This document shows positions 38,673-50,450 of a stretch of DNA of 64,000 nucleotides, piece by piece. The stretch's first letter is position 1. Every line of letters starts with the position of its first letter. The stretch covers positions 1 through 64,000 of the forward strand of contig BDEJ01000010.1 of NCBI GenBank assembly GCA_001653155.1. Reading direction: 5' to 3'. A program made the position numbers and the translations under genes. Under the pieces are notes generated by a model. It worked only from the letters and a program-made list of their open reading frames with translations, had not been told where the DNA came from and ran no database searches. The DNA comes from Porphyromonadaceae bacterium H1. Its GTDB lineage: Bacteria > Bacteroidota > Bacteroidia > Bacteroidales > Paludibacteraceae.

Positions 38673-39908
38673 ATGAGATTTGATGAATTTTCCTTCTGTG
38701 AGGAACTGATGGAGGGTTTGCGTGCGATGAATTTTAAGACCGCAACTCCGGTACAGGAAGAAACCATTCCCGTTATCTTAAAAAAGCAAGATGTTATTTC
38801 TTGTGCTCAAACCGGAACGGGAAAAACAGCGGCATTTTTATTGCCTTTGTTGAATAATTTGCGAACCGAAGCACATGATGTCAATGCCTTGAATGCCATT
38901 ATTATGGCTCCTACACGTGAATTGGCCCAGCAAATCGACCAACAAATGGAGGGTTTTTCTTACTTCTTACCTTTCTCTTCGGTTGCTGTTTACGGAGGAA
39001 ACGATTCTCAAGCTTGGGATGTGCAAAAATGCGGATTAACCAAAGGGGCTGATGTTGTAATTGCAACCCCGGGACGTTTGCTGTCGCACATCAACCTTTA
39101 CGATATCGATTTCTCCAAGGTTAAGTATTTTATTTTGGATGAGGCCGACCGGATGTTGGATATGGGTTTCTACGACGATATTATGCGAATTGTAAAACTC
39201 TTACCGAAGGAGCGGCAGACTATCATGTTTTCGGCTACGATGCCTCCGAAAATCCGGCAGCTGGCTAAAAGCATTCTCAATAATCCCGTCGAAATTCGAA
39301 TTGCTGTTTCGCGTCCGCCTGAAAGCATCATGCAGACAGCCTTTGTCTGTTACGAAAGCCAAAAGATAAAAATCATTCGTCACCTTTTCTCAACCCAAGA
39401 ACCGAATAAGGTTATCTTGTTCTCCGGCTCGAAAATGAAGGTAAAGGAAATAACCAAGACTTTGCGAACGATGAAACTCCCCGTTGGAGAAATGCATTCG
39501 GATCTCGATCAGGCACAGCGCGATCATGTGATGCATGAGTTTCGAAACGGGCGTGTAAATCTTTTGGTGGCTACAGATATTGTATCCCGTGGGATCGATA
39601 TCGACGATATTTCTTTGGTTATTAACTACGATGTGCCCCACGATGCCGAGGACTACGTACACCGCATCGGACGTACGGCACGCGCCAATGCCGAGGGAAT
39701 GGCTATTACCTTTGTCTCGGAGGAAGAACAGTGGAAATTTAAACAAATAGAAGATTTCCTGAGCAAAGACATTTATAAGATTCCTTTGCCGGAGGAATTG
39801 GGTGAAGCGCCTGCTTATGAGCCCGAAAAACATCGGGGAAAGCCGCAACGAGGTCGTGGATCCGGAAGGAGAGTCCCTCATGGGAGGAAAACAAGCAAGA
39901 AACGTTGA
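38673..39908 (+). CDS. DEAD-box RNA helicase
   Basis: A 411-residue ATP-dependent RNA helicase. The Q motif F-N/K-TATPVQEETIP, motif I AQTGTGKTAA, PTRELAQQ, ATPGRL, DEADRM, SAT and the C-terminal HRIGRTAR are all present. The end is a basic tail (RGKPQRGRGSGRR) for RNA binding, so it is a RhlE-like type with a short tail. It is transcribed with its own leader after the TPR terminator. The leu leader begins about 170 bp downstream. Confidence 0.93.
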   Translation: MRFDEFSFCEELMEGLRAMNFKTATPVQEETIPVILKKQDVISCAQTGTGKTAAFLLPLLNNLRTEAHDVNALNAIIMAPTRELAQQIDQQMEGFSYFLPFSSVAVYGGNDSQAWDVQKCGLTKGADVVIATPGRLLSHINLYDIDFSKVKYFILDEADRMLDMGFYDDIMRIVKLLPKERQTIMFSATMPPKIRQLAKSILNNPVEIRIAVSRPPESIMQTAFVCYESQKIKIIRHLFSTQEPNKVILFSGSKMKVKEITKTLRTMKLPVGEMHSDLDQAQRDHVMHEFRNGRVNLLVATDIVSRGIDIDDISLVINYDVPHDAEDYVHRIGRTARANAEGMAITFVSEEEQWKFKQIEDFLSKDIYKIPLPEELGEAPAYEPEKHRGKPQRGRGSGRRVPHGRKTSKKR

Positions 39909-40074
39909 ATCCTTTTTCTTACCCCGGCTTATTTTATTCGTAACTACGACGTTTTTGCCCTCTCCTCTGATTTTGTAAACTGATTGCGAAGGTATAAGGA
40001 GCGATATGAGATGCTTGATAAATCGGAGAAAAAGAGAATTGTTTGAGTTTACTTCGAAATAAAATTCAGTTTCT

Positions 40075-40106
40075 TTTGGCGGATTTAAAAGAATAATATA
40101 TCTTTG
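40075..40106 (+). promoter_or_regulatory. Promoter of the leu operon (-33 TTTG, -7 TATCTTTG)
   Basis: TTTG at 40075-40078, a 20-bp spacer, then TATCTTTG at 40099-40106. This is a near-perfect match to the Bacteroidota sigma-ABfr promoter type, and the predicted start (about 40113) falls just before the leader peptide. It is the clearest promoter in the window. Confidence 0.75.
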
Positions 40107-40125
40107 CAGCAACTTTGAATGTAGA

Positions 40126-40197
40126 ATGATACAAAACTCTTTATATATTATTAGCCTTCTCGGTCTTATTATTCTCTTGTTAAACAAGCTGAACTGA
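40126..40197 (+). CDS. leu operon leader peptide (BCAA-rich)
   Basis: A 23-codon ORF, ATG at 40126, TGA at 40195-40197. Eight codons are Leu (TTA, CTT, CTC, CTT, CTC, TTG, TTA, CTG) and five are Ile, so 13 of 23 residues are branched-chain. The Leu codons cluster between 40156 and 40191, just upstream of a hairpin switch. This is what a transcription-attenuation leader for a leucine operon looks like. Uncharged tRNA-Leu or tRNA-Ile would stall the ribosome in this run. Too short for normal gene calling. Confidence 0.75.
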   Translation: MIQNSLYIISLLGLIILLLNKLN

Positions 40198-40247
40198 GTG
40201 CGGTATATGTAATATATAAGGATGACAGCATAAAACCTCTCGCACTC
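40196..40247 (+). promoter_or_regulatory. Antiterminator pairing of the leu attenuator
   Basis: GAGTGCG (40196-40202), which overlaps the leader stop codon, is perfectly complementary to CGCACTC (40241-40247), the 5' arm of the terminator stem. A further G-T pair (40203 with 40240) extends it. A ribosome stalled in the Leu run leaves the first segment free, so the antiterminator can form. A ribosome at the stop codon would cover it. A separate A/T-rich pairing (40138-40149 with 40211-40222) is also possible. Confidence 0.7.
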
Positions 40248-40268
40248 TTGAGTGTGAGAGGTTTTTTT
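40232..40268 (+). terminator. Attenuator terminator upstream of leuA
   Basis: A 15-bp stem: positions 40232-40246 pair with 40251-40265 with one G-T pair, around the tetraloop CTTG (40247-40250), and T residues run from 40262 to 40268. It lies 54 bp before leuA and would stop transcription unless the antiterminator forms. Confidence 0.9.
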
Positions 40269-40322
40269 ATAAAGGATTTTTTGAATCAAACGAAATAGAA
40301 GATTAGATAAAGGAAGAAATTT

Positions 40323-41816
40323 ATGGATAGACTGTTTATTTTTGACACAACGCTTCGAGATGGGGAGCAAGTGCCGGGTTGTCAGCTGAATACGGTAGAA
40401 AAAATTCAAGTGGCAAAGGCCTTGGAAGGGCTTGGGGTAGATGTGATTGAGGCCGGCTTCCCGATTTCGAGCCCCGGTGATTTTACTTCTGTAGTCGAAA
40501 TATCCAAGTCCGTTACTTGGCCGGTTATTTGTGCTCTTACGCGTGGCGTGGAGAAAGACATTGATGTTGCAGCCGAAGCCTTGCAATACGCTAAACGTAA
40601 ACGCATACATACGGGCATCGGCACTTCCGAATACCATATTCGTTATAAGTTCAATTCTACTCAGGAAGAGATCCTCGAGCGGGCTGTAGCCGCCGTTAAG
40701 TACGCCAAAAAATATGTACAAGATGTTGAGTTTTACTGCGAAGATGCAGGACGTACGGACAATGCTTATCTGGCACGGGTAGTACAAGCCGTTATCAAAG
40801 CAGGAGCTACGGTCGTTAATATTCCCGATACGACCGGTTATTGCCTGCCCTGGCAGTATGGCGAAAAAATCAACTACCTTTTCGAGAATGTGGATAACAT
40901 CCACCGGGCCGTTATTTCTACACATTGCCACAACGATCTGGGGATGGCCACAGCCAACACTATGGCGGGGATTCAAAACGGAGCCCGACAGGTGGAGGTT
41001 ACAATTAACGGTATCGGTGAGCGTGCCGGAAATACTTCGCTCGAGGAGATAGCTATGATTCTGAAATGCCATAAAGGACTTAATATAGACACGAATATCA
41101 ATACGCAAAAGATTTACCCGGTTAGCCGTCTGGTATCGAGTCTTATGAATATGCCTGTGCAGCCCAACAAGGCCGTAGTAGGTCGCAATGCCTTTGCTCA
41201 TTCTTCGGGGATACATCAGGACGGAGTTCTGAAAGGACGCCAGACTTACGAAATCATGGATCCTAAAGAGGTTGGGATAGACGAAAACTCGATATTGCTT
41301 ACCGCACGCAGTGGACGCGCCGCACTCAAACACCGCCTGAATGTGTTGGGTATTGAGGTTGACAACGGAAAACTGGATAAAATATACGAAGATTTCCTGC
41401 GCTTGGCCGATAAGAAAAAAGATATAAACGACGCCGACGTATTGATGCTTGCTGGTATGGAACGCAGTGAAACGCAGCGAATAAAAATAGATTATCTGCA
41501 AGTAACTTCAGGTGTTGGTGTGAAAGCAGTGGCCAGTTTGAGTCTCCAGATTGCCGGCGAAAAATTTGAGGCAGCTTCCGGTGGAAACGGCCCGGTGGAT
41601 GCAGCTATCAACGCTCTTAAGCAGATAATCAAACGTAAGATGACGCTTCATGAGTTTACCATACAGGCTATCAGCCGAGGAAGTAACGATGTAGGAAAAG
41701 TACACATGCAAGTCGAACACGATGGCTCGATTTATTACGGATTTGGAGCCAATACGGATATTGTAGCAGCCTCTGTGGAAGCTTATATCGATGCCATAAA
41801 TAAATTTGTGAAATGA
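40323..41816 (+). CDS. leuA: 2-isopropylmalate synthase
   Basis: A 497-residue enzyme that condenses acetyl-CoA with 2-oxoisovalerate, the first step of leucine synthesis. The catalytic TIM barrel contains [10 protein letters not shown] (7-16) and the metal-binding HCHND (His201, His203). The C-terminal allosteric (LeuA dimer) domain is present (about 370-497, [15 protein letters not shown] region), so leucine feedback is expected. It is the first structural gene after the attenuator. Confidence 0.93.
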
Positions 41817-41873
41817 TTTAAACTGTCTGATAACTAATTGTATAACCGAATTCATACCCCCAAAAAAGAAGAT

Positions 41874-43298
41874 ATGAAACCGACTCAGCAAACTAAGCCC
41901 TTGTCAACTCAAGGGAAGACTCTTTTCGATAAAATTTGGGACGCACATGTAGTATCGTCGGTCGAGAATGGTCCCACACAACTTTATATCGACCGTCATT
42001 TTTGCCATGAAGTAACCAGTCCACAGGCATTTAACGGCCTTCGAGCCCGAGGTTTGAGGGTCTTACGGCCGGATCAAACTACCATGACTGCCGATCACAA
42101 TACGCCTACCCTCCATCAGGACAAGCCGGTGAAGGATCCTGTTTCGCGCCACCAGTTGGATACTTTTGCTCAAAATGCTTCGGACTTCAGCATGCCCTTG
42201 TTCTATCCCTTGGGACATGAAAAAAATGGTGTTGTACACATCATCGGTCCTGAAAATGGTTTCACCCAACCGGGGATGACCATTGTCTGTGGCGATAGCC
42301 ATACATCGACCCACGGCGCTTTTGGCGCTATTGCCTTCGGTATCGGAACCAGCGAAGTGGAAATGGTTCTGGCCACCCAATGTATCCTCCAGAGCCGTCC
42401 CAAGACCATGCGCATAACTTTTGACGGTAAACTGCGTCCGGGAGTTACCTCCAAGGATCTGGCTCTTTATATGATTGCAGAACTGACCACAGGAGGAGCT
42501 ACCGGTTATTTTGTGGAATATGCCGGGGAGGCCATCCGTAAGCTCAGCATGGAAGCTCGTATGACGCTGTGTAACCTTTCTATTGAGATGGGAGCCCGAG
42601 GAGGAATGATTGCCCCGGACGAGACGACCTTTGCCTACGTAAAAGGGCGTGAATTTGCTCCTAAGGGAGAGGAGTGGGAGCGTAAATTGGCTTACTGGAG
42701 GACCCTTAAAAGCGACGATGATGCTGTTTTCGATAAAGAGTTGCGTTTCGATGCCGCGCGGATAAGCCCTATGATTACCTACGGAACGAATCCCGGTATG
42801 GGAATGAGCATCTACGAAAGCATACCGGCACTCGAGGATGTGGACGAAGCCGGGCGCATATCTTTTAAAAAATCACTTGATTATATGGGCTTCAGACCCG
42901 GAGAAAAACTTCTCGGGAAACCCATCGATTATGTTTTCCTGGGTAGTTGTACGAACGGTCGCATTGAGGATTTTCGTCTTTTTGCAAACTATGTGAAAGG
43001 AAAGAAAAAAGCTTCCGCTGTTACTGCATGGCTTGTTCCGGGCAGTTGGAAGGTGCGTAAACAAATTGAAGAAGAGGGCTTGTTGGATATACTTACAGAA
43101 GCCGGTTTCGAATTGCGTCAGCCGGGATGTTCGGCTTGTCTGGCTATGAACGATGACAAAGTTCCTGCCGGAAAATATGCCGTCAGCACTTCCAATCGCA
43201 ATTTCGAAGGACGCCAAGGGCCCGGCGCTCGAACCATATTGGCTGGCCCGCTTGTTGCCGCCGCAGCGGCCGTCAGCGGAGTGATTTGCGAGCCGTAA
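41874..43298 (+). CDS. leuC: 3-isopropylmalate dehydratase large subunit
   Basis: A 474-residue aconitase-family subunit that isomerises 2- to 3-isopropylmalate together with LeuD. The [4Fe-4S] ligands are in [12 protein letters not shown] and GCSACLAMN, with the additional [12 protein letters not shown] motif in the N-terminal half. ATG 41874 was chosen; the frame is also open from a TTG at 41838, which would be 13 bp closer to leuA but unconserved. A 57-bp gap separates it from leuA. Confidence 0.95.
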
Positions 43299-43367
43299 CA
43301 AGTATATTTTTCGGAAAACTTTTGATTTATTTCTCAAAACAGATAGCTAATACGATAATTGTAGATT

Positions 43368-43964
43368 ATGGAAAAATTCAGCACACTAACGTCAACCGTT
43401 CTTCCTCTTCCTATCGAGAATGTGGATACGGATCAGATTATTCCGGCCCGCTTCCTGAAAGCCACCGACAAGAAAGGTTTTGGAAACAATCTGTTTGCCG
43501 ATTGGCGCTATAATAACGACGGTAGCCCCAAAAAGGACTTTGTCTTGAACACCCCCCTCTATGCCGGTAGTAAGATATTGCTTGCCGGTAAGAATTTTGG
43601 CTCCGGAAGCAGCCGAGAACACGCTGCTTGGGCTATTGTGGGTTATGGTTTTAAAGTTGTGGTATCAAGCTTTTTTGCCGATATATTCAAGAATAATGCT
43701 CTTAATAACGGTCTTTTGCCGGTAGTAATAAGTCCTGCTTTCCTGGCCGAGATATTTGCCGCCGTTTCCAAGAACCCTCAAACCACACTTACCGTCAATC
43801 TTCAGGAACAGACTTTGACGAATAACCTTGACGGCAAATCGGAGCTATTCGAAATCAATCCCTATAAAAAGGACTGTTTGCTCCGGGGACTGGATGATAT
43901 TGATTACTTGTTGAGCCGCAAAGAGTTGATTGAACAGTATGAGAAAGAGAGATTTAAATATTAA
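43368..43964 (+). CDS. leuD: 3-isopropylmalate dehydratase small subunit
   Basis: A 198-residue swivelling-domain subunit of isopropylmalate isomerase. The conserved [16 protein letters not shown] and [15 protein letters not shown] segments are present. It follows leuC by 69 bp and precedes the second LeuA-type gene by 24 bp. Confidence 0.95.
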
Positions 43965-43988
43965 GAAACTCAGACCCTCCGAAGAACT

Positions 43989-45512
43989 ATGATCGAAATA
44001 ATGGATACTACCCTGCGCGACGGGGAACAAACTTCGGGCGTTTCTTTTTCTGCCCACGAGAAACTGAGTATGGCCCGCCTGTTACTCGACGAGCTCCGTG
44101 TGGATCGAATTGAAATTGCTTCGGCACGTGTATCGGACGGTGAGTTTGAGGCTGTGCGGAAATTGGCTCAATGGGCAAGCTCGAACGGGCATTTAGATCG
44201 GCTTGAAGTACTTGGTTTCGTTGACGGAAATGCTTCTCTGGATTGGATACAGCAGGCCGGATGTTGTGTTATGAATCTGCTTTGCAAGGGATCTGAAAAG
44301 CATTGTACCTATCAACTGCGTAAAACGGCAGAGACGCATGTTGCCGACATAAAATACCTCGTAGCAGAAGCGCAAAACAGGGGTATTAAAGTAAATATTT
44401 ACCTTGAAGACTGGAGTAACGGGATGCGTAATTCCGAAGATTACGTGTACCGGCTTATGGATCAGCTGCAGCATGAAAAGATCGAGCGTTTTATGTTGCC
44501 CGATACTTTGGGTATTCTCAATCCAGACGAAACAAGGGAGTTTTGTAGTAAAATGATCCGGCGTTATCCCGGTCTGCACTTCGATTTTCATGCTCATAAC
44601 GATTACGATTTAGCTGTGGCTAATGTCTTCGAGGCTCTAAAGGCCGGTGTCAGTGGAGTGCATGTAACGATAAACGGTCTGGGGGAACGTGCCGGAAATG
44701 CCCCGTTGACCAGTGTGATCGCATTGATTCACGACCACCTCAAGCTCGAAACGAGGATCAATGAAGAAGCTTTGTTCCAGGTAAGTAAGGTGGTCGAAAG
44801 TTATTCGGGAATCCGTATTCCGAACAACAAGCCGGTGATAGGTGACAACGTCTTTACACAGGTGGCTGGCGTGCATGCCGATGGAGACAATAAGAAAAAC
44901 CTCTACTTCAACGATCTTCTGCCCGAACGCTTCGGGCGTCGTCGTGAGTATGCATTGGGTAAAACTTCCGGAAAAGCCAATATCAAGAAAAACTTAGAAG
45001 CTCTTGGTATAGAGGTGGATGAAGATACGATGAAAAAAATAACGGAACGTATCATCGAACTGGGCGATAAAAAGGAAGTCGTCTCGCAGGACGAATTGCC
45101 TTACATCATTTCCGATTTGCTGAAGAAGGGAGAGGAGGAGGACGATATTCGCATGCTTAACTACTCGCTTACTCTTACGAAAGGGCTCAGGCCGATGGCT
45201 ACCGTGAAGATCGCGATAAAAGGAGAGGAGTTTCAACAGACTGCAGTTGGCGATGGGCAGTATAATGCTTTCTCTAAGGCTATGTACAAGATATACAGGC
45301 AACTGGGTAAAGCGACTCCCGACTTGCTTGACTATGTAGTAGTCATTCCTCCGGGAGGTAAAACCGATGCTCTGGTACAGACCATTATCACATGGCGTTT
45401 TGATGGAAAAACCTTTAAAACGCGAGGACTTGCTCCCGACCAGACTGTGGCAGCTATCAAGGCTACGATGAAAATGCTTAATATTATTGAAGATAAGAGG
45501 GCTTCGCACTGA
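43989..45512 (+). CDS. LeuA/CimA-family acyltransferase
   Basis: A 507-residue paralogue of LeuA. It has the catalytic [12 protein letters not shown] (6-17) and HAHND (His201, His203) and a C-terminal regulatory-type domain. Where LeuA has [10 protein letters not shown] after the strand, this protein has IASARVSDGEFEAV, so the substrate pocket differs. It could be an alternative isopropylmalate synthase, a citramalate synthase (isoleucine route), or a related Re-type synthase. The neighbours favour a role in branched-chain synthesis. It ends 15 bp before the Fur-family gene on the other strand. No leuB follows. Confidence 0.8.
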   Translation: MIEIMDTTLRDGEQTSGVSFSAHEKLSMARLLLDELRVDRIEIASARVSDGEFEAVRKLAQWASSNGHLDRLEVLGFVDGNASLDWIQQAGCCVMNLLCKGSEKHCTYQLRKTAETHVADIKYLVAEAQNRGIKVNIYLEDWSNGMRNSEDYVYRLMDQLQHEKIERFMLPDTLGILNPDETREFCSKMIRRYPGLHFDFHAHNDYDLAVANVFEALKAGVSGVHVTINGLGERAGNAPLTSVIALIHDHLKLETRINEEALFQVSKVVESYSGIRIPNNKPVIGDNVFTQVAGVHADGDNKKNLYFNDLLPERFGRRREYALGKTSGKANIKKNLEALGIEVDEDTMKKITERIIELGDKKEVVSQDELPYIISDLLKKGEEEDDIRMLNYSLTLTKGLRPMATVKIAIKGEEFQQTAVGDGQYNAFSKAMYKIYRQLGKATPDLLDYVVVIPPGGKTDALVQTIITWRFDGKTFKTRGLAPDQTVAAIKATMKMLNIIEDKRASH

Positions 45513-45526
45513 GGCAAAAACAGGCT

Positions 45527-45958
45527 TTAGCGCACTGTATTGCCTGAGCAGGCGTCGCAAAGTCCTTTCAGAACAAAATTCACGCTCGACAAGCTGAAGC
45601 CGGGAGGGAGTTTTACTTGGGGAATAGCAATATTTTCCATGCAGAAGGTGCGTTGGCATCGATAGCAGGCAAAATGCACGTGTAAGTCCTGAAGGCTACA
45701 GTTACAGTCGGGGCTGCAGACTGAGTATTTGATGGAGCCCGATCCGTCGTCGATGCTGTGGATGAGGTGTTGGCGGTGAAAGAGGTTGAGAGTCCGGAAA
45801 AGTGTGGATTTATCCACTGTATCGAGCTGCTCTTCCAAATCCGACAAGCTGAATGCTTGCCGGTATCCGGCAATAGTTTTCAATATTAGCAGGCGGAGGG
45901 CTGTGGGACGTATGCCTCTCTTTTCGAGTTGTTGAATGTACTTTGTTTCTTCCTGCAT
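45527..45958 (-). CDS. Fur-family transcriptional regulator
   Basis: A 143-residue metal-dependent repressor. The N-terminal winged helix contains the DNA-recognition segment TVDKSTLFRTLNLFHR. The C-terminal part has two Cys pairs, CYRC and CDAC, for structural zinc, plus a CSPDCNC cluster. The classical H-H-x-H-x-x-C sensory run is replaced by LQDLHVHFAC, a variant that I recall as common among Bacteroidota Fur-like proteins. The metal or peroxide it senses is not clear. It is the last gene after the Bat cluster, 17 bp below batE on the same strand, so it may be co-transcribed with it. Confidence 0.85.
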   Translation of the reverse strand: MQEETKYIQQLEKRGIRPTALRLLILKTIAGYRQAFSLSDLEEQLDTVDKSTLFRTLNLFHRQHLIHSIDDGSGSIKYSVCSPDCNCSLQDLHVHFACYRCQRTFCMENIAIPQVKLPPGFSLSSVNFVLKGLCDACSGNTVR

Positions 45959-45974
45959 AATCGTTTATGGCTTT

Positions 45975-46778
45975 TTATATCTTTTCTATTAGGGCCGACT
46001 CGATCCAGCCTGCACTTCCGTTTGCAATTTCCACTTCCGACCATTCGCCGAGGCTCCCTTTTACCTTTACCTTACATCCTTCGTGGAGTTGGAAGAGGTC
46101 GGTACCTCGTTTGTCGGGTGAGCTTTTGATCACTACTACACCTGTCATCACAATGGCAGTGTTGCGTTTTTCGAACTGGCTTTTGCGAATGCCTGCAAAT
46201 ATAAAGCTTGCCGTGCTGCATGCTAAAGCCAATGTGGCTGTGTAGAACGCGATTTTCCGCAGTCTGTATGCGTTTGCAAACAGAAATAAAAAGGCCAATA
46301 TCAATGTGCCGATAAAAAGGCTGAAGCTGATGTAAAGCCATTGATTCGAATTGAGCTTTCTGATTAGAGTTTCGATCCAGTGCAAGAGGAAGAAGTTTTC
46401 TTTCTCGGGGATGTTATCCACTATTTTTTGCTTGGCCAGCTCTAAGTTGTGTCGGGCATCACTATAATTCTCATTCAGCCTCAGTGCCCGTTCGTAGTTC
46501 AGAATCGACCGCCCGGTTTCGTTCATTTTGTAGTAGGCGTTGCCCAAATTGTAATAGAGTTCGGGAGCTACGAGTCCTTCGGCTGCTATGGCTTCGTAGT
46601 GCTTCGCTGCAGATGCGTATTCACCCTTTGTGTAGAGTGTGTTGGCGTAGGCCAGGGAGTCCGTGGGGTTCGCCAGCGAAGTTGATATACCCCAAATGAG
46701 TGAAGCAAGCAGCAGGCAGAAAGCCTTGCCTTTGCCGGCAAGACGCCTTGCCTCTGTGTGGATGGATATTGCTTTCAT
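45975..46778 (-). CDS. batE: BatE: TPR and SH3-like membrane protein
   Basis: A 267-residue protein with a signal anchor, two or three TPRs (ELYYNLGNAYYKMNETGRSILNYERAL region), two membrane helices (WLYISFSLFIGTLILAFLFLF and IAFYTATLALACSTASFIFAG), and a C-terminal SH3b-like domain (GTDLFQLHEGCKVKVKGSLGEW). The order matches BatE of the aerotolerance operon of Bacteroidales. It ends the batA-E run. Confidence 0.85.
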   Translation of the reverse strand: MKAISIHTEARRLAGKGKAFCLLLASLIWGISTSLANPTDSLAYANTLYTKGEYASAAKHYEAIAAEGLVAPELYYNLGNAYYKMNETGRSILNYERALRLNENYSDARHNLELAKQKIVDNIPEKENFFLLHWIETLIRKLNSNQWLYISFSLFIGTLILAFLFLFANAYRLRKIAFYTATLALACSTASFIFAGIRKSQFEKRNTAIVMTGVVVIKSSPDKRGTDLFQLHEGCKVKVKGSLGEWSEVEIANGSAGWIESALIEKI

Positions 46779-46801
46779 GAAGAAGTCCTTTTTTTCTGTT
46801 T

Positions 46802-48646
46802 TTATCCTTTTTTTATAGCCTGTTCCAAAGTTGTTATGGCATCAATAGCCTCTGAGTACAGATTGCCCATTTCCTTTTGCCCCGTATTGGGTGCATAGCG
46901 TGCAAACTCACAAGTGTTCAAAATCTGCATGAAGGAATCGGCAAGCGCAGCTTCGATTTTTCTGTCCTCCAGTTCAGCTGTAACTCGCTCTTTGGTCAAT
47001 TCAGCCGGAAGGATGGAGAGCTTGTCGCTCAGATAGGTCCATGTCGATTTGAGAACTTCATCGTAGAACATGTCTTTCTTACCTTCGTTCAGGAGCTTTT
47101 GTGCTGCCTTCAAGCGTTTCTGTGCAATTTTTTGTGCCTTTTTGTTGCGCATCAGTTTGATGTCGGCGCTTTCTTTGGCGTGTTTCCGGAATAGCATGAA
47201 GGCTAACAAGGCCAACAACAAGGGTATGACATACATCAACCAAGCATTCAGACTGCCAAAGAGGCTTTTTTCCGGAGCTTCGAGTAGTATCGGTTCGGTA
47301 TGAATAAAACGAATATCGCTTCCCAATTGCTTAAAGTCTTCTTTGTTGACGAAGCGGTTCTCACTGCCAGGCACAATAGGCGTTTCGCTTCCTTCCGCTT
47401 TGAGCACCGATAAGCTGTAAGCCGGTGTATGTAAGGTTTTGTAGCGTTTTTCGCTCACATCGAAGTAGGAAAATTCTGCCGCAGGAATTTCAAAATTACC
47501 CGATTGTCTTGGTATGATCAGATATTCTACACTTTTACTTCCGGATAGTCCCGAAGCGGAGACTTTGAAGTTGTTGTTTACTTTCGGGTCGTAGGTTTCG
47601 AAGCTTTCAGGAAATTTGAATTCCGGGTTTTTAACCATGCGGAAGTTTCCGTTTCCATTGATGTTTACCTTCAAGGTGATGGCTTCGTTAGCTTTCACCT
47701 CTTTGTTCGAAAGGGAGGAGTTGATGCTAAAGCGTCCGACGGCTCCGCTGAACGAAGCCGGTTTATTTTCCGGAAGGCTTTTGGCACTGATACTCACTGC
47801 AGGAGCCGACAAGTTGTGGGATATGTTGGTATATGGGTCTTCAAAAATGCTGCGCATAGCTCTCCGGTTCGCAATCCGGATTACGGCTTCGAAGTCCACT
47901 CGCTCGATGCGGAGGCTACCCGCACGTTGCGGGAAGAGCAATACTTCGTATAAGGTAACCGACTTATAATTGCGTCCGTTGTAGTTTTCGTAATCAAACT
48001 CTCTGCTTTCGGGCAATTCGATATCGTTTCGTATAAAACCGTTAAATTCAGGTACTTTCTTCATCGGACACTGTATCACGTCCAAGAGAGTGTAGAGCTT
48101 GTAGGTAACCAGAAAGGCTTCTTGTTCGTACATGTTGCTCTTGGATACGATTGTACGGATGAAAATGGTTTCGTTCGATATATTGGAATCCTCGCTGTAT
48201 CTGTTTTGTGAGCGTTGCTGTGTCGGAGCGGGATTGGCATCAGGCGGCAGCACTTTGATGGAAAGTCCGTTCGAATTGTACTTTTCCCCCTTCACGTTTA
48301 TACTGGCCGGGCCTATGCTGAAACTACCTTCTTTCTGAGCTTGTAAGGTATATGTGTAGGATACGGAGACGGATGAGCTTTGTTTCCCATTGATTATTTG
48401 TATGCTGGAGCTGCGAGAGGTGAAAGGCCCTGCCAAAATATTGAATCCCGTCAGTTCGGGCAGTCTGAGGTCTTTACTGTCGTTGGTGTTGGTGCTATAG
48501 ACCAGTTGAAAGGGTTGTCCCAGAATGACGCTTTTAGGAGCTCTTGCGGTGAATAAAACAGCTTCGTTGTCGGCTCGTAAATTTGTGAACAGAGCACATG
48601 CGAGGAATATTGCCGATAATAATCTGTATTTCGAGTTTCGGGTCAT
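46802..48646 (-). CDS. batD: BatD: large exported protein
   Basis: A 614-residue protein with a signal peptide (FLACALFTNLRAD), a long extracytoplasmic beta-rich part starting with LFTARAPKSVILGQPFQLVYS, one membrane helix (LMYVIPLLLALLAFMLF, about residues 475-491), and a cytoplasmic helical tail. Typical BatD length. It lies between batC and batE and probably anchors the vWA proteins at the membrane. Confidence 0.9.
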   Translation of the reverse strand: MTRNSKYRLLSAIFLACALFTNLRADNEAVLFTARAPKSVILGQPFQLVYSTNTNDSKDLRLPELTGFNILAGPFTSRSSSIQIINGKQSSSVSVSYTYTLQAQKEGSFSIGPASINVKGEKYNSNGLSIKVLPPDANPAPTQQRSQNRYSEDSNISNETIFIRTIVSKSNMYEQEAFLVTYKLYTLLDVIQCPMKKVPEFNGFIRNDIELPESREFDYENYNGRNYKSVTLYEVLLFPQRAGSLRIERVDFEAVIRIANRRAMRSIFEDPYTNISHNLSAPAVSISAKSLPENKPASFSGAVGRFSINSSLSNKEVKANEAITLKVNINGNGNFRMVKNPEFKFPESFETYDPKVNNNFKVSASGLSGSKSVEYLIIPRQSGNFEIPAAEFSYFDVSEKRYKTLHTPAYSLSVLKAEGSETPIVPGSENRFVNKEDFKQLGSDIRFIHTEPILLEAPEKSLFGSLNAWLMYVIPLLLALLAFMLFRKHAKESADIKLMRNKKAQKIAQKRLKAAQKLLNEGKKDMFYDEVLKSTWTYLSDKLSILPAELTKERVTAELEDRKIEAALADSFMQILNTCEFARYAPNTGQKEMGNLYSEAIDAITTLEQAIKKG

Positions 48647-48694
48647 AAAAGAGGATTGTATTGTTGTGTTCGTATTACTGAAGCAGGGAAGAAT

Positions 48695-49366
48695 TTACCA
48701 GTCTTTCTCTACTTTTCGGTTTCCGGCCGGAATTTCTTTTTTCTGTTTATCTTTCGCTTCTTTTTCGTCTTGCATCAGCGCATCCAGAATTTGTTGGGCG
48801 CTTTCTTTAGACATCCGAGCCTGTTGCTGTTGTTGCTGAGTTTTCGGTTTCTCCTGTTGCTGTTTTTTCTGTTCTTCCTCTTGCTTTTGTTCTTCGTTTT
48901 GTTTTTCTTGTTGCTGCTGTTGGTTTTGTTGTTTTTTCAGTAAGGATTGGGCGTAGGCCATGTTGTAGCGTATGTCGTTGTCTTTCGGAGTATTACGAAG
49001 TGCGTTTTTGTAGGCCTCGATACTTTCCTGTATTTTGTTTTCGGACAGGAGGCTATTGCCTATGTTGTGCAAGGCGGCTGCTTTCTTTTGTTTATCATTG
49101 CCCGACAAAGCGCCTGCGCGATCAAAATAATCCAAAGCATCGCTGTATTTTTTTTGGCGATACAAAGCATTGCCCAGGTTGAAATTAGCTTCAAAGGATT
49201 TGTTGTTTTTTTCCAAGGCTTTCCGGTAGGCCACTTCCGCTTCGGTATATTTTTCCGATTTATATTGCTTGTTTCCGCTTCGTAAATCCTTGTTTTCTTG
49301 CTGTGCCCACAATGCAGTAGAGCTTAACACAAACAGGAGCAGCAGTGTATGTGAACTTTTCTTCAT
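48695..49366 (-). CDS. batC: BatC: TPR protein with Gln/Glu-rich tail
   Basis: A 223-residue exported protein with a signal peptide (SSTALWAQQ), four TPR motifs in the first 150 residues, and a low-complexity Q/E/K-rich stretch (about 150-190) before the end. TPRs and a Q-rich tail are typical of BatC. The low-complexity run is encoded by mixed CAG/CAA/GAG codons and is not a pure microsatellite. It starts 31 bp after batB ends. Confidence 0.88.
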   Translation of the reverse strand: MKKSSHTLLLLFVLSSTALWAQQENKDLRSGNKQYKSEKYTEAEVAYRKALEKNNKSFEANFNLGNALYRQKKYSDALDYFDRAGALSGNDKQKKAAALHNIGNSLLSENKIQESIEAYKNALRNTPKDNDIRYNMAYAQSLLKKQQNQQQQQEKQNEEQKQEEEQKKQQQEKPKTQQQQQQARMSKESAQQILDALMQDEKEAKDKQKKEIPAGNRKVEKDW

Positions 49367-49397
49367 TGCTACGAGAGGATTATATTCAACTATTTGA

Positions 49398-50450
49398 TCA
49401 GTCGTCGATTTTATTCAATTTTTCTTTCAGATCGAAGATTTTTATCTTGCTCAATACCTTATTTTTACGCCCGAACATGAAGCTTTCGGCCAGTAACAGG
49501 AGCAGGGCTATCAGGGCAAAGGATTGAAATTGTTCGTTGTAATCGGAGAATACGCGAGTCGTTATTTCTTCCTTCGAAAGTTTGTTCAACTCTTTCGAGA
49601 TGGCACGCAGGGCCGTATTGGTATTGTCGGCTCGGGCATAGATACCGCCTCCGGCTCGGGCAACTTCGCGGCACATTTCTTCGTTGAGTTTCGATACGAC
49701 CACCTTGTCGTCTTTGTCGCGTCGGTAGTTTGTTGTTCCCGGTATGGGTATGGGAGCTCCTTCGGGTTTCCCCATGCCTATTACGTGTACGACGATTCCG
49801 TTTTCGCGGGCTAAATTGGCGGCTGCTATGGCATCGTCTTCGTGGTTTTCACCGTCGGTGATGACAACGATAGCACGTCCCACCGGTGTTTTCTTCTCTC
49901 CGAAAGCCTTTACGGCCATGTTTATCGCAGCTCCTACGGCTGTACCTTGCCTTGGGGCCATTTGCGGGGATATGGAGGAGAGAAACATTTTAGCCGATAC
50001 GCGGTCTACCGTTATAGGCAGCTGTACGTAGGCATCGGCAGCAAAAACGATAAGTCCTATTTTGTCGTTTTCCATCTCGTCTATTAGGCGCGACATGTTT
50101 TGCTTAGCGCGTTCGAGGCGATTGGGGATGATATCCTGCGCCATCATTGAGTTTGATACGTCCAGCGCCACCATTACTTCGATACCGTGGCGTTTCTCGG
50201 TCTCCACCTTGCTCCCGAATTGCGGACGGGCCAGCACGATGATGATCATCAGCAAAGCCAATAATTGTATGTAGAATTTTACATGAGGACGGAAGCGTGA
50301 AACATTCGGCATGAAGGCAGCCAGCAAGGCCGGATTCCCAAAATGTTTCAACGAGCGTTTCCTCCTGATTTCCTGAAACAGGAATATTGCTAACAACAGA
50401 GGAATCAGTATCAGCAGGAATAGAAACTCAGGATGTGCGAATCGAAACAT
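49398..50450 (-). CDS. batB: BatB: vWA-domain membrane protein
   Basis: A 350-residue protein with two N-terminal membrane helices, a von Willebrand A domain with an intact MIDAS motif D-V-S-N-S (ALDVSNSMMAQD), the Thr/Asp positions in later loops (GTAVGAAI, ITDGENHE), and a C-terminal membrane helix. BatA and BatB are thought to form a stress-response complex with MoxR. The gene lies 28 bp after batA. Confidence 0.92.
   Translation of the reverse strand: MFRFAHPEFLFLLILIPLLLAIFLFQEIRRKRSLKHFGNPALLAAFMPNVSRFRPHVKFYIQLLALLMIIIVLARPQFGSKVETEKRHGIEVMVALDVSNSMMAQDIIPNRLERAKQNMSRLIDEMENDKIGLIVFAADAYVQLPITVDRVSAKMFLSSISPQMAPRQGTAVGAAINMAVKAFGEKKTPVGRAIVVITDGENHEDDAIAAANLARENGIVVHVIGMGKPEGAPIPIPGTTNYRRDKDDKVVVSKLNEEMCREVARAGGGIYARADNTNTALRAISKELNKLSKEEITTRVFSDYNEQFQSFALIALLLLLAESFMFGRKNKVLSKIKIFDLKEKLNKIDD

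Follow-up and report, generated by a model that had tools for sequence, protein, structure and literature searches.

A probable attenuator reading leucine and isoleucine codons before a leu-cim operon of the Bacteroidales, and a family of related leaders

What decides whether transcription enters the leucine operon of Porphyromonadaceae bacterium H1 (Bacteroidota; Bacteroidales; Paludibacteraceae)? The locus lies in the first 64,000 nucleotides of contig BDEJ01000010.1 (assembly GCA_001653155.1), called the window here, where positions 40075-40322 precede leuA. A sequence-only reading had seen in this stretch a complete leucine attenuator, with a promoter, an open reading frame (ORF) of 23 codons including 8 Leu and 5 Ile codons, two complementary strands and a terminator, and each of these elements was recovered in its place. 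We consider it very probable, judging from the DNA and its relatives, that a leuA-leuC-leuD-cimA operon is controlled here by ribosome-mediated transcription attenuation, with both leucine and isoleucine being read. Ribosome-mediated attenuation is a textbook mechanism, and in the leu attenuator of E. coli and Salmonella (leuL; the Rfam Leu leader) clustered Leu codons stand before leuA. The leader in the window shares with leuL the protector, antiterminator and terminator logic and the position of a Leu-codon leader before leuA, but it differs in the Ile codons placed among the Leu codons, in the overlap of the antiterminator with the leader stop, and in the cimA-like gene of the operon. Its elements, all on the plus strand, are:

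40075 to 40106, plus strand: Bacteroidota-type promoter, TTTG at 40075-40078, N20, TATCTTTG at 40099-40106
40126 to 40197, plus strand: leader peptide ORF MIQNSLYIISLLGLIILLLNKLN followed by a stop, 23 codons, 8 of them Leu and 5 Ile
40138 to 40156, plus strand: protector strand 1, within the ORF, partner of 40202-40222 when the ribosome is absent (from folds; matching stem in relatives)
40176 to 40188, plus strand: small CUUG/CAAG hairpin across the cluster's final Leu codons (covariation in relatives)
40196 to 40203, plus strand: antiterminator 5' strand GAGTGCGG, sharing bases with the stop codon of the ORF (from folds; helix in relatives)
40202 to 40222, plus strand: protector strand 2, partner of 40138-40156 (from folds; stem in relatives)
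40232 to 40268, plus strand: intrinsic terminator, 15-bp stem 40232-40246 / 40251-40265, CTTG loop, T7 at 40262-40268
40240 to 40247, plus strand: antiterminator 3' strand TCGCACTC, made of terminator 5' arm and first loop base (from folds; helix in relatives)

GAGTGCG at 40196-40202 is complementary to CGCACTC at 40241-40247, and the antiterminator pairing comprises 7-8 bp overall. The region 40110-40275 folds with an energy of -47.8 kcal/mol, compared with -29.1 +/- 3.8 kcal/mol in 200 shuffles (z -4.87, 0/200 as good). The switch between stalling and stopping that had been proposed for this leader implies three states, and folding the window in pieces reproduced them. Without a ribosome, the fold shows the terminator together with a pairing between the ORF and the nucleotides that follow its stop; with the RNA exposed from 40196 and ending at 40250, the minimum-energy fold (-12.0 kcal/mol) contains exactly the pairing of 40196-40202 with 40241-40247; with the RNA covered to 40208, as by a ribosome at the stop, the terminator alone forms. 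A leader ORF with clustered codons, an intrinsic terminator, an antiterminator that excludes it, a protector stem and a stall/stop geometry were all found.

From these elements the following course of events can be proposed. RNA polymerase would start soon after 40106, with a ribosome trailing on the 23-codon leader. When Leu- or Ile-tRNA is scarce, the ribosome would stall within the Leu/Ile cluster, open the protector stem and free 40196-40203 to pair with the terminator 5' arm at 40240-40247; once this antiterminator had formed, transcription would continue into the operon, whose genes we infer to be co-transcribed. When leucine and isoleucine are both plentiful, the ribosome would reach the stop codon at 40195-40197 and cover 40196-40203, so that the terminator would form and transcription end at about 40268. 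The CUUG/CAAG hairpin may possibly act as a pause hairpin.

Is this arrangement kept elsewhere? In a species-genome search, the relatives of the leuA product (79-89% identical) came from Bacteroidales or Bacteroidia records, mostly metagenome-assembled genomes, many of them labelled Paludibacter or Paludibacteraceae. We examined 106 leuA loci: whole genomes gave 26, among them that of the window, and the other 80 are the best of the 518 species-genome relatives; two contigs occur twice among them (L004 = L078 and L006 = L057). The rule for scoring a leader was an ORF no farther than 700 nt away with Leu or Ile at 7 or more of 14 residues; 72 of the 106 satisfied it. By eye, L025 and L103 were removed (no terminator), L022, L044 and L088 were added, and eight minus-strand loci were accepted, all with a density of at least 7; L019 and L024 (density 7) were not accepted. 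By this density rule and these decisions, a Leu/Ile-rich ORF followed by a terminator stem is present at 81 of the 106 loci, in 77 distinct sequences, with the stem present and the T-run absent at L044. The sole other genome of the same genus among the 26 whole genomes (L026) has the leader. The typical peptide resembles MNNNFLHILLLGIIILLQNK, and the promoter is kept with it: 75 of the 77 distinct leaders (window included) have TAnnTTTG in the 70 nt ahead of their start, where shuffles lead one to expect 4.0, and the full TTTG-N17-22-TAnnTTTG is found in 51 of the 77 within the 70 nt examined. Among 20 closely alike leaders of the commonest form, pairwise differences at codon positions 1, 2 and 3 number 395, 311 and 955, and codon differences comprise 653 synonymous and 683 non-synonymous ones.

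Two features of these ORFs can be recorded here. The Leu codon CTA accounts for 20% of Leu codons in the leaders versus 2% in the leuA genes that they precede, and the Ile codon ATT for 84% versus 51%, a bias that could reflect either sensitivity to rare codons or a constraint from pairing. At L008, L009 and L105 (by eye also L179, L181 and L182) the ORF extends past the usual stop, through or beyond the antiterminator strand.

Compensatory changes, which the sequence-only reading led one to expect in related leu leaders, were looked for on an alignment of the 77 distinct sequences and were found in the antiterminator as well as in the other stems. The antiterminator, between the stop region and the terminator 5' arm, is paired in 88.1% of cells and has changes on both sides in 7 of 8 pairs (26 cells); 0/500 shuffles were as high on each measure, and slid out of place the pairing falls to 35-63%. 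Examples are GAAGTGAG/CTCACTTC, GAAGCGAG/CTCGCTTC, GAGTGAG/CTCACTC and AAGCAGG/CCTGCTT, besides GAGTGCG/CGCACTC in the window. Compensating changes on both sides affect 8 of 10 pairs of the terminator stem and 4 of 4 pairs of the CUUG/CAAG hairpin (84.1% of cells paired), and for the three parts of the protector stem the share of paired cells is 72.8, 83.6 and 89.5%. Tested jointly, the protector, CUUG/CAAG and terminator stems stand above all 500 shuffles; since the sequences share ancestry, shuffle counts of this kind are not probabilities.

The geometry of the switch was also evaluated across the 77 leaders. With the terminator 3' arm unmade, the minimum-energy fold contains at least 5 pairs between stop region and terminator arm in 74 of 77, versus 49.6% of dinucleotide shuffles. 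A ribosome placed at 709 of 723 Leu/Ile codons reaches at most the first bases of the antiterminator helix, and with the stop codon in the A site at least half of the helix is masked in 75 of the 76 leaders in which a helix was found; a usual ribosome footprint was assumed here and the helix was looked for around the stop alone, so the stop-masking result is partly given by construction.

Several observations weigh against an attenuator of this kind and should be set beside the figures above. A simple consensus scan of 39000-47000 missed the terminator, because four of its T's sit inside the stem, and it found neither terminators nor promoters in excess. By minimum free energy the terminator, at -22 kcal/mol, is the more stable structure, the antiterminator reaching -12 kcal/mol, so that readthrough hinges on the order of folding and the switch must therefore be kinetic. 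In the alignment the window's own antiterminator lies about 5 columns out of register and the window thus adds nothing to the antiterminator covariation figures. An alignment-free helix score averages 16.4 for true partners, 13.6 for swapped and 11.7 for shuffled ones; 71 of the 77 true pairs score at least 12, but so do 64% of those swapped and 46% of those shuffled, a modest excess that is explained by the common GTGAG/CTCAC core. Moreover, the antiterminator mostly spans the upper terminator stem, its UUU/UUU extension being mismatched in most relatives; past these mismatches, GG:CC is kept in 63-64 of 77 and carries the antiterminator into the lower terminator stem. Finally, a leader was not scored at 25 of the 106 loci, 19 of them with sufficient upstream sequence; the other six (L012, L046, L050, L072, L102 and L106), leaderless as scored, have less than 150 nt upstream, and at L046 and L050 the 3' half of the leader element is visible.

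Why should a leucine leader contain isoleucine codons? The genes downstream offer an answer:

40323 to 41816, plus strand: leuA, 2-isopropylmalate synthase (NCBIfam TIGR00973 and NF002086, cut-offs exceeded)
41874 to 43298, plus strand: leuC (NCBIfam TIGR00170, cut-off exceeded)
43368 to 43964, plus strand: leuD (NCBIfam TIGR00171, cut-off exceeded)
43989 to 45512, plus strand: cimA-like gene, nearest to Leptospira (R)-citramalate synthase, the final same-strand gene of the run

The best solved relative of the last product is 3ble, the Leptospira citramalate synthase (E 1.7e-121), followed by 6ktq, a homocitrate synthase (1.5e-52). Its best NCBIfam match is NF042433 with 650 bits, below the cut-off of 950, the next being a LeuA model with 340 bits; with the citramalate model TIGR00977 it scores 180 bits, short of the cut-off of 450 and below several LeuA models. 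In the citramalate route, an established pathway, LeuCD also produces an isoleucine precursor, and through the putative CimA the leuCD genes of this operon probably serve isoleucine too. The operon would then feed both pathways, LeuA with LeuCD leading to leucine and the CimA-like enzyme with LeuCD to isoleucine, which accounts for the Ile codons in the leader. The suggestion that isoleucine is sensed too is thus supported, with the gene ending the operon as the likely reason. Threonine dehydratase (TIGR01127) gave only weak matches in the window's genome, the best with 65 bits for a cut-off of 379 (TIGR01127 was the model covered here, TIGR01124 lying outside this search), and the citramalate route may therefore be its main isoleucine route.

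If the Ile codons go with cimA, they should be fewer where cimA lies elsewhere. Assignment was made by hand for L001 (the window) and L013, with cimA in the operon, and for L061, L109 and L266, with cimA elsewhere in the genome, and was left undetermined for L045. In 89 leuA-first leaders with cimA in the operon, the 14-residue core holds 2-7 Ile (mean 4.19) and on average 4.72 Leu, versus 1, 2 and 1 Ile and a mean of 6.33 Leu at L061, L109 and L266 (one-sided rank test for Ile, p 0.0012, not corrected for ancestry). It counts against this link that it consists of three cases, and that L109, with 2 Ile, ties with four of the leaders having cimA in the operon. The leuA contig of L266 ends ahead of the remaining operon; L168 has 4 Ile with no cimA in sight, in a sequence that stops about 1.3 kb past leuD; L022 is Ile-rich with no cimA match in its genome, which is 81% complete and has a short leuA frame. 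A broken cimA in two genomes with Ile-poor leaders was considered and rejected, the lone TAA being the end of the gene.

Is the leader confined to leu operons? A covariance model was built from the 77 distinct leaders and applied with a threshold of E <= 0.001. It matches 129 of 393 Bacteroidales genomes and 78 of 207 genera, chiefly before two operons; in a sample drawn from the class it matches 55 of 395 genomes, 12 of which belong to the window's order, its genome included. We examined 127 sites, mainly the best-scoring (107 at order level and 20 at class level), and the first recognised downstream gene is leuA, ilvD or ilvB at 105 of the 107 and at 9 of the 20. The second operon has the order ilvD-ilvB-ilvN, often a thioesterase-like gene, and ilvC; NCBIfam confirmed the references used for ilvD, ilvB, ilvC and leuB, and ilvN and the "thioesterase" were named by eye. 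For the codon table 107 of the 127 sites were kept, and 188 rows were merged to 173 by identical peptide. The 20 sites dropped comprise 8 with no leader of density 6 or with a start more than 20 nt off the match, 6 with the leu/ilv gene more than 400 nt away and 6 without a leu/ilv gene.

From this table it is evident that codon content goes with operon type. At least 2 Val are found in the core of 46 of 57 distinct leaders before ilvD or ilvB, versus 1 of 116 before leuA, and in the 28 genomes examined with both leaders, the window's included, the ilv leader is richer in Val than the leu leader in 28 (in one of these, G223, the ilv leader start is ambiguous, and its L188 was excluded from the codon table for its start). 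A Val-containing leader lies upstream of ilvD at 11 of 15 loci from the window's genome and 14 others; in the window's genome it is the Val/Leu/Ile leader MFHNIVILISVLLLWVIDLRW followed by a stop, with a terminator. Before pheA, a Phe/Tyr-rich ORF is present at 8 of 8 loci, with a terminator flagged by a crude scan at 6 of the 8. In the window's genome this leader (G000:C14, L360) reads MSIRLFTYFYFFFYFS up to its stop, and GAGCAGGA / TCCTGCTC form a perfect 8-nt antiterminator complement. A scan of the window's genome for leaders of such kind saw none before hisG or the examined thrA-like gene; with this genome included, 3 of 10 hisG loci have a His-rich ORF in front of the gene, and 1 of 8 thrA loci a Thr/Ile-rich one.

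On this comparison we regard as fairly probable a wider statement, namely that in the Bacteroidales leader-peptide attenuation is standard for the synthesis of branched-chain amino acids and at least phenylalanine, with one architecture whose codons are rewritten to fit the genes of the operon: Leu and Ile where cimA has joined, mostly Leu where cimA lies elsewhere, Val, Leu and Ile before ilvDBNC, and Phe/Tyr before pheA. The mixed codons of the E. coli ilvGMEDA, ilvBN and thr leaders likewise read several pathway products; here Leu and Ile go with a leu-cim operon, and Val is added before ilv. A point against so simple a code is that in 11 of the 57 ilv-first leaders the Val count stays below 2; 7 of these have leuA later in the examined stretch.

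Some further leaders should be mentioned in their own right. Five ilv-first ones (L198, L206, L221, L239 and L274) have cores with Leu and Ile and no Val, with leuA later in 4 of the 5. In four Bacteroidales loci (L163, L164, L165 and L275) a tandem pair of leader and terminator stands before one ilv operon, and the codon mixes of the two differ. In other orders of the class, with genes named by eye, Thr/Ile leaders were seen before an aspartokinase gene (L292, L295 and L296) and Cys-containing ORFs before sulfur genes (L291 and L298). One match, L273, lies before a gltB-like gene, also named by eye, and its ORF points to no clear amino acid. The sequences of these L273, L291, L298 and L292/L295/L296 sites suggest attenuators of other specificities. 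Two matches of the class-level search (L300 and L301) have no sensible leader.

Could the leader sense leucine only, its Ile codons being filler in a hydrophobic peptide that is kept for itself, through nascent-chain arrest or an action in trans? We hold this to be improbable, though the best of the alternatives. The core LLLGIIILL is indeed strikingly conserved in the Paludibacter group, together with LH and QNK, residues with no regulatory meaning; some of these conserved non-regulatory codons, however, fall in pairing strands. Moreover, Ile is low in the three leaders with cimA elsewhere, and Val-rich runs take the place of these residues before the ilv operons of the same genomes, and Phe/Tyr runs before pheA, so that the content tracks the pathway and not a fixed motif.

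A terminator that constitutively ends an upstream transcript, next to an unrelated short ORF and with no regulation, seems highly improbable. The gene upstream of the attenuator, a DEAD-box helicase gene at 38673-39908 of the window, runs in the same direction (plus strand), and an intergenic terminator could serve it; the lack of a promoter excess in the consensus scan would also fit. Nevertheless, the ORF and the terminator follow one another in fixed order at 81 of the 106 loci, the promoter element accompanies 75 of the 77 distinct leaders, and changes in the stop-region strand are matched by changes in the terminator arm. Less probable still is a T-box-like element or a riboswitch for some metabolite, next to which the ORF would be incidental: strong conserved structure and a terminator would suit it, but no Rfam family, including the enterobacterial Leu leader, T-box and Bacteroid-trp, matches at gathering score in the 64-kb window, the competing stems largely account for the conserved segments, a like ORF is found at 81 of 106 loci with third-position differences dominating in the 20 leaders tested, and codon content tracks the downstream operon.

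Beyond the operon, a Fur-family regulator gene (window 45527-45958, minus strand; NCBIfam matches weak) is convergent with its end, followed at 45975-50450, minus strand, by genes for TPR, BatD-like and von Willebrand-type proteins that, named by eye, resemble a bat (aerotolerance) operon. A search of the plasmid collection gave no match, E. coli and phage collections being outside this search.

The remark that such translation-coupled control is little described for the phylum was a fair one, yet there are precedents. Weinberg et al. (2010, PMC2864571) list the Bacteroid-trp motif (Rfam RF01692) among the cis-regulatory motifs of Bacteroidetes. In 21 genomes, RF01692 gave 3 with a match at E <= 0.001, of which 1 passes the cut-off, and none in the window's genome; the motif, which presumably owes its name to trp genes, belongs to another family than the leader described here. 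Leader-peptide candidates appear in a study of Flavobacterium psychrophilum (PMC9723704), and small ORFs in long 5' untranslated regions "reminiscent of leader peptides" in one on Bacteroides thetaiotaomicron (PMC7366714); the portions of both texts consulted mention neither a leader before leu or ilv genes nor a codon code or covariation. Staphylococcus aureus is reported to have a leucine-rich attenuator peptide that serves branched-chain amino acid genes (PMC5794164); this is a Firmicute system, likened here by its description only. A comparative survey of 2010 (Lopatovskaya et al., as cited in PMC4833913) may already list such leaders. Among the open-access titles and abstract beginnings listed, none described a leu or ilv attenuator in the phylum, which is not proof of absence. 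The mechanism is known; what is new, as far as this literature search goes, is how widely the family occurs, the link of a Leu and Ile code to cimA, and the use of Val as a code in the sister leader.

The regulation of amino-acid synthesis in Bacteroidota has left few traces in the literature searched, and an attenuator family supported by covariance offers a map of what each operon probably senses. Bacteroidota are thought to begin translation largely without Shine-Dalgarno pairing, and this family would operate in such a phylum. If the proposed code holds, the leader is a label of the products of its operon, the leu-cim operon would be under two amino acids at once, and the leader codons alone would be indirect evidence that citramalate synthase is what the second LeuA-like gene encodes. 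Natural swaps, with cimA inside or outside the operon and Val present in or missing from the leader, allow the old idea that regulatory codons follow end products to be tested directly.
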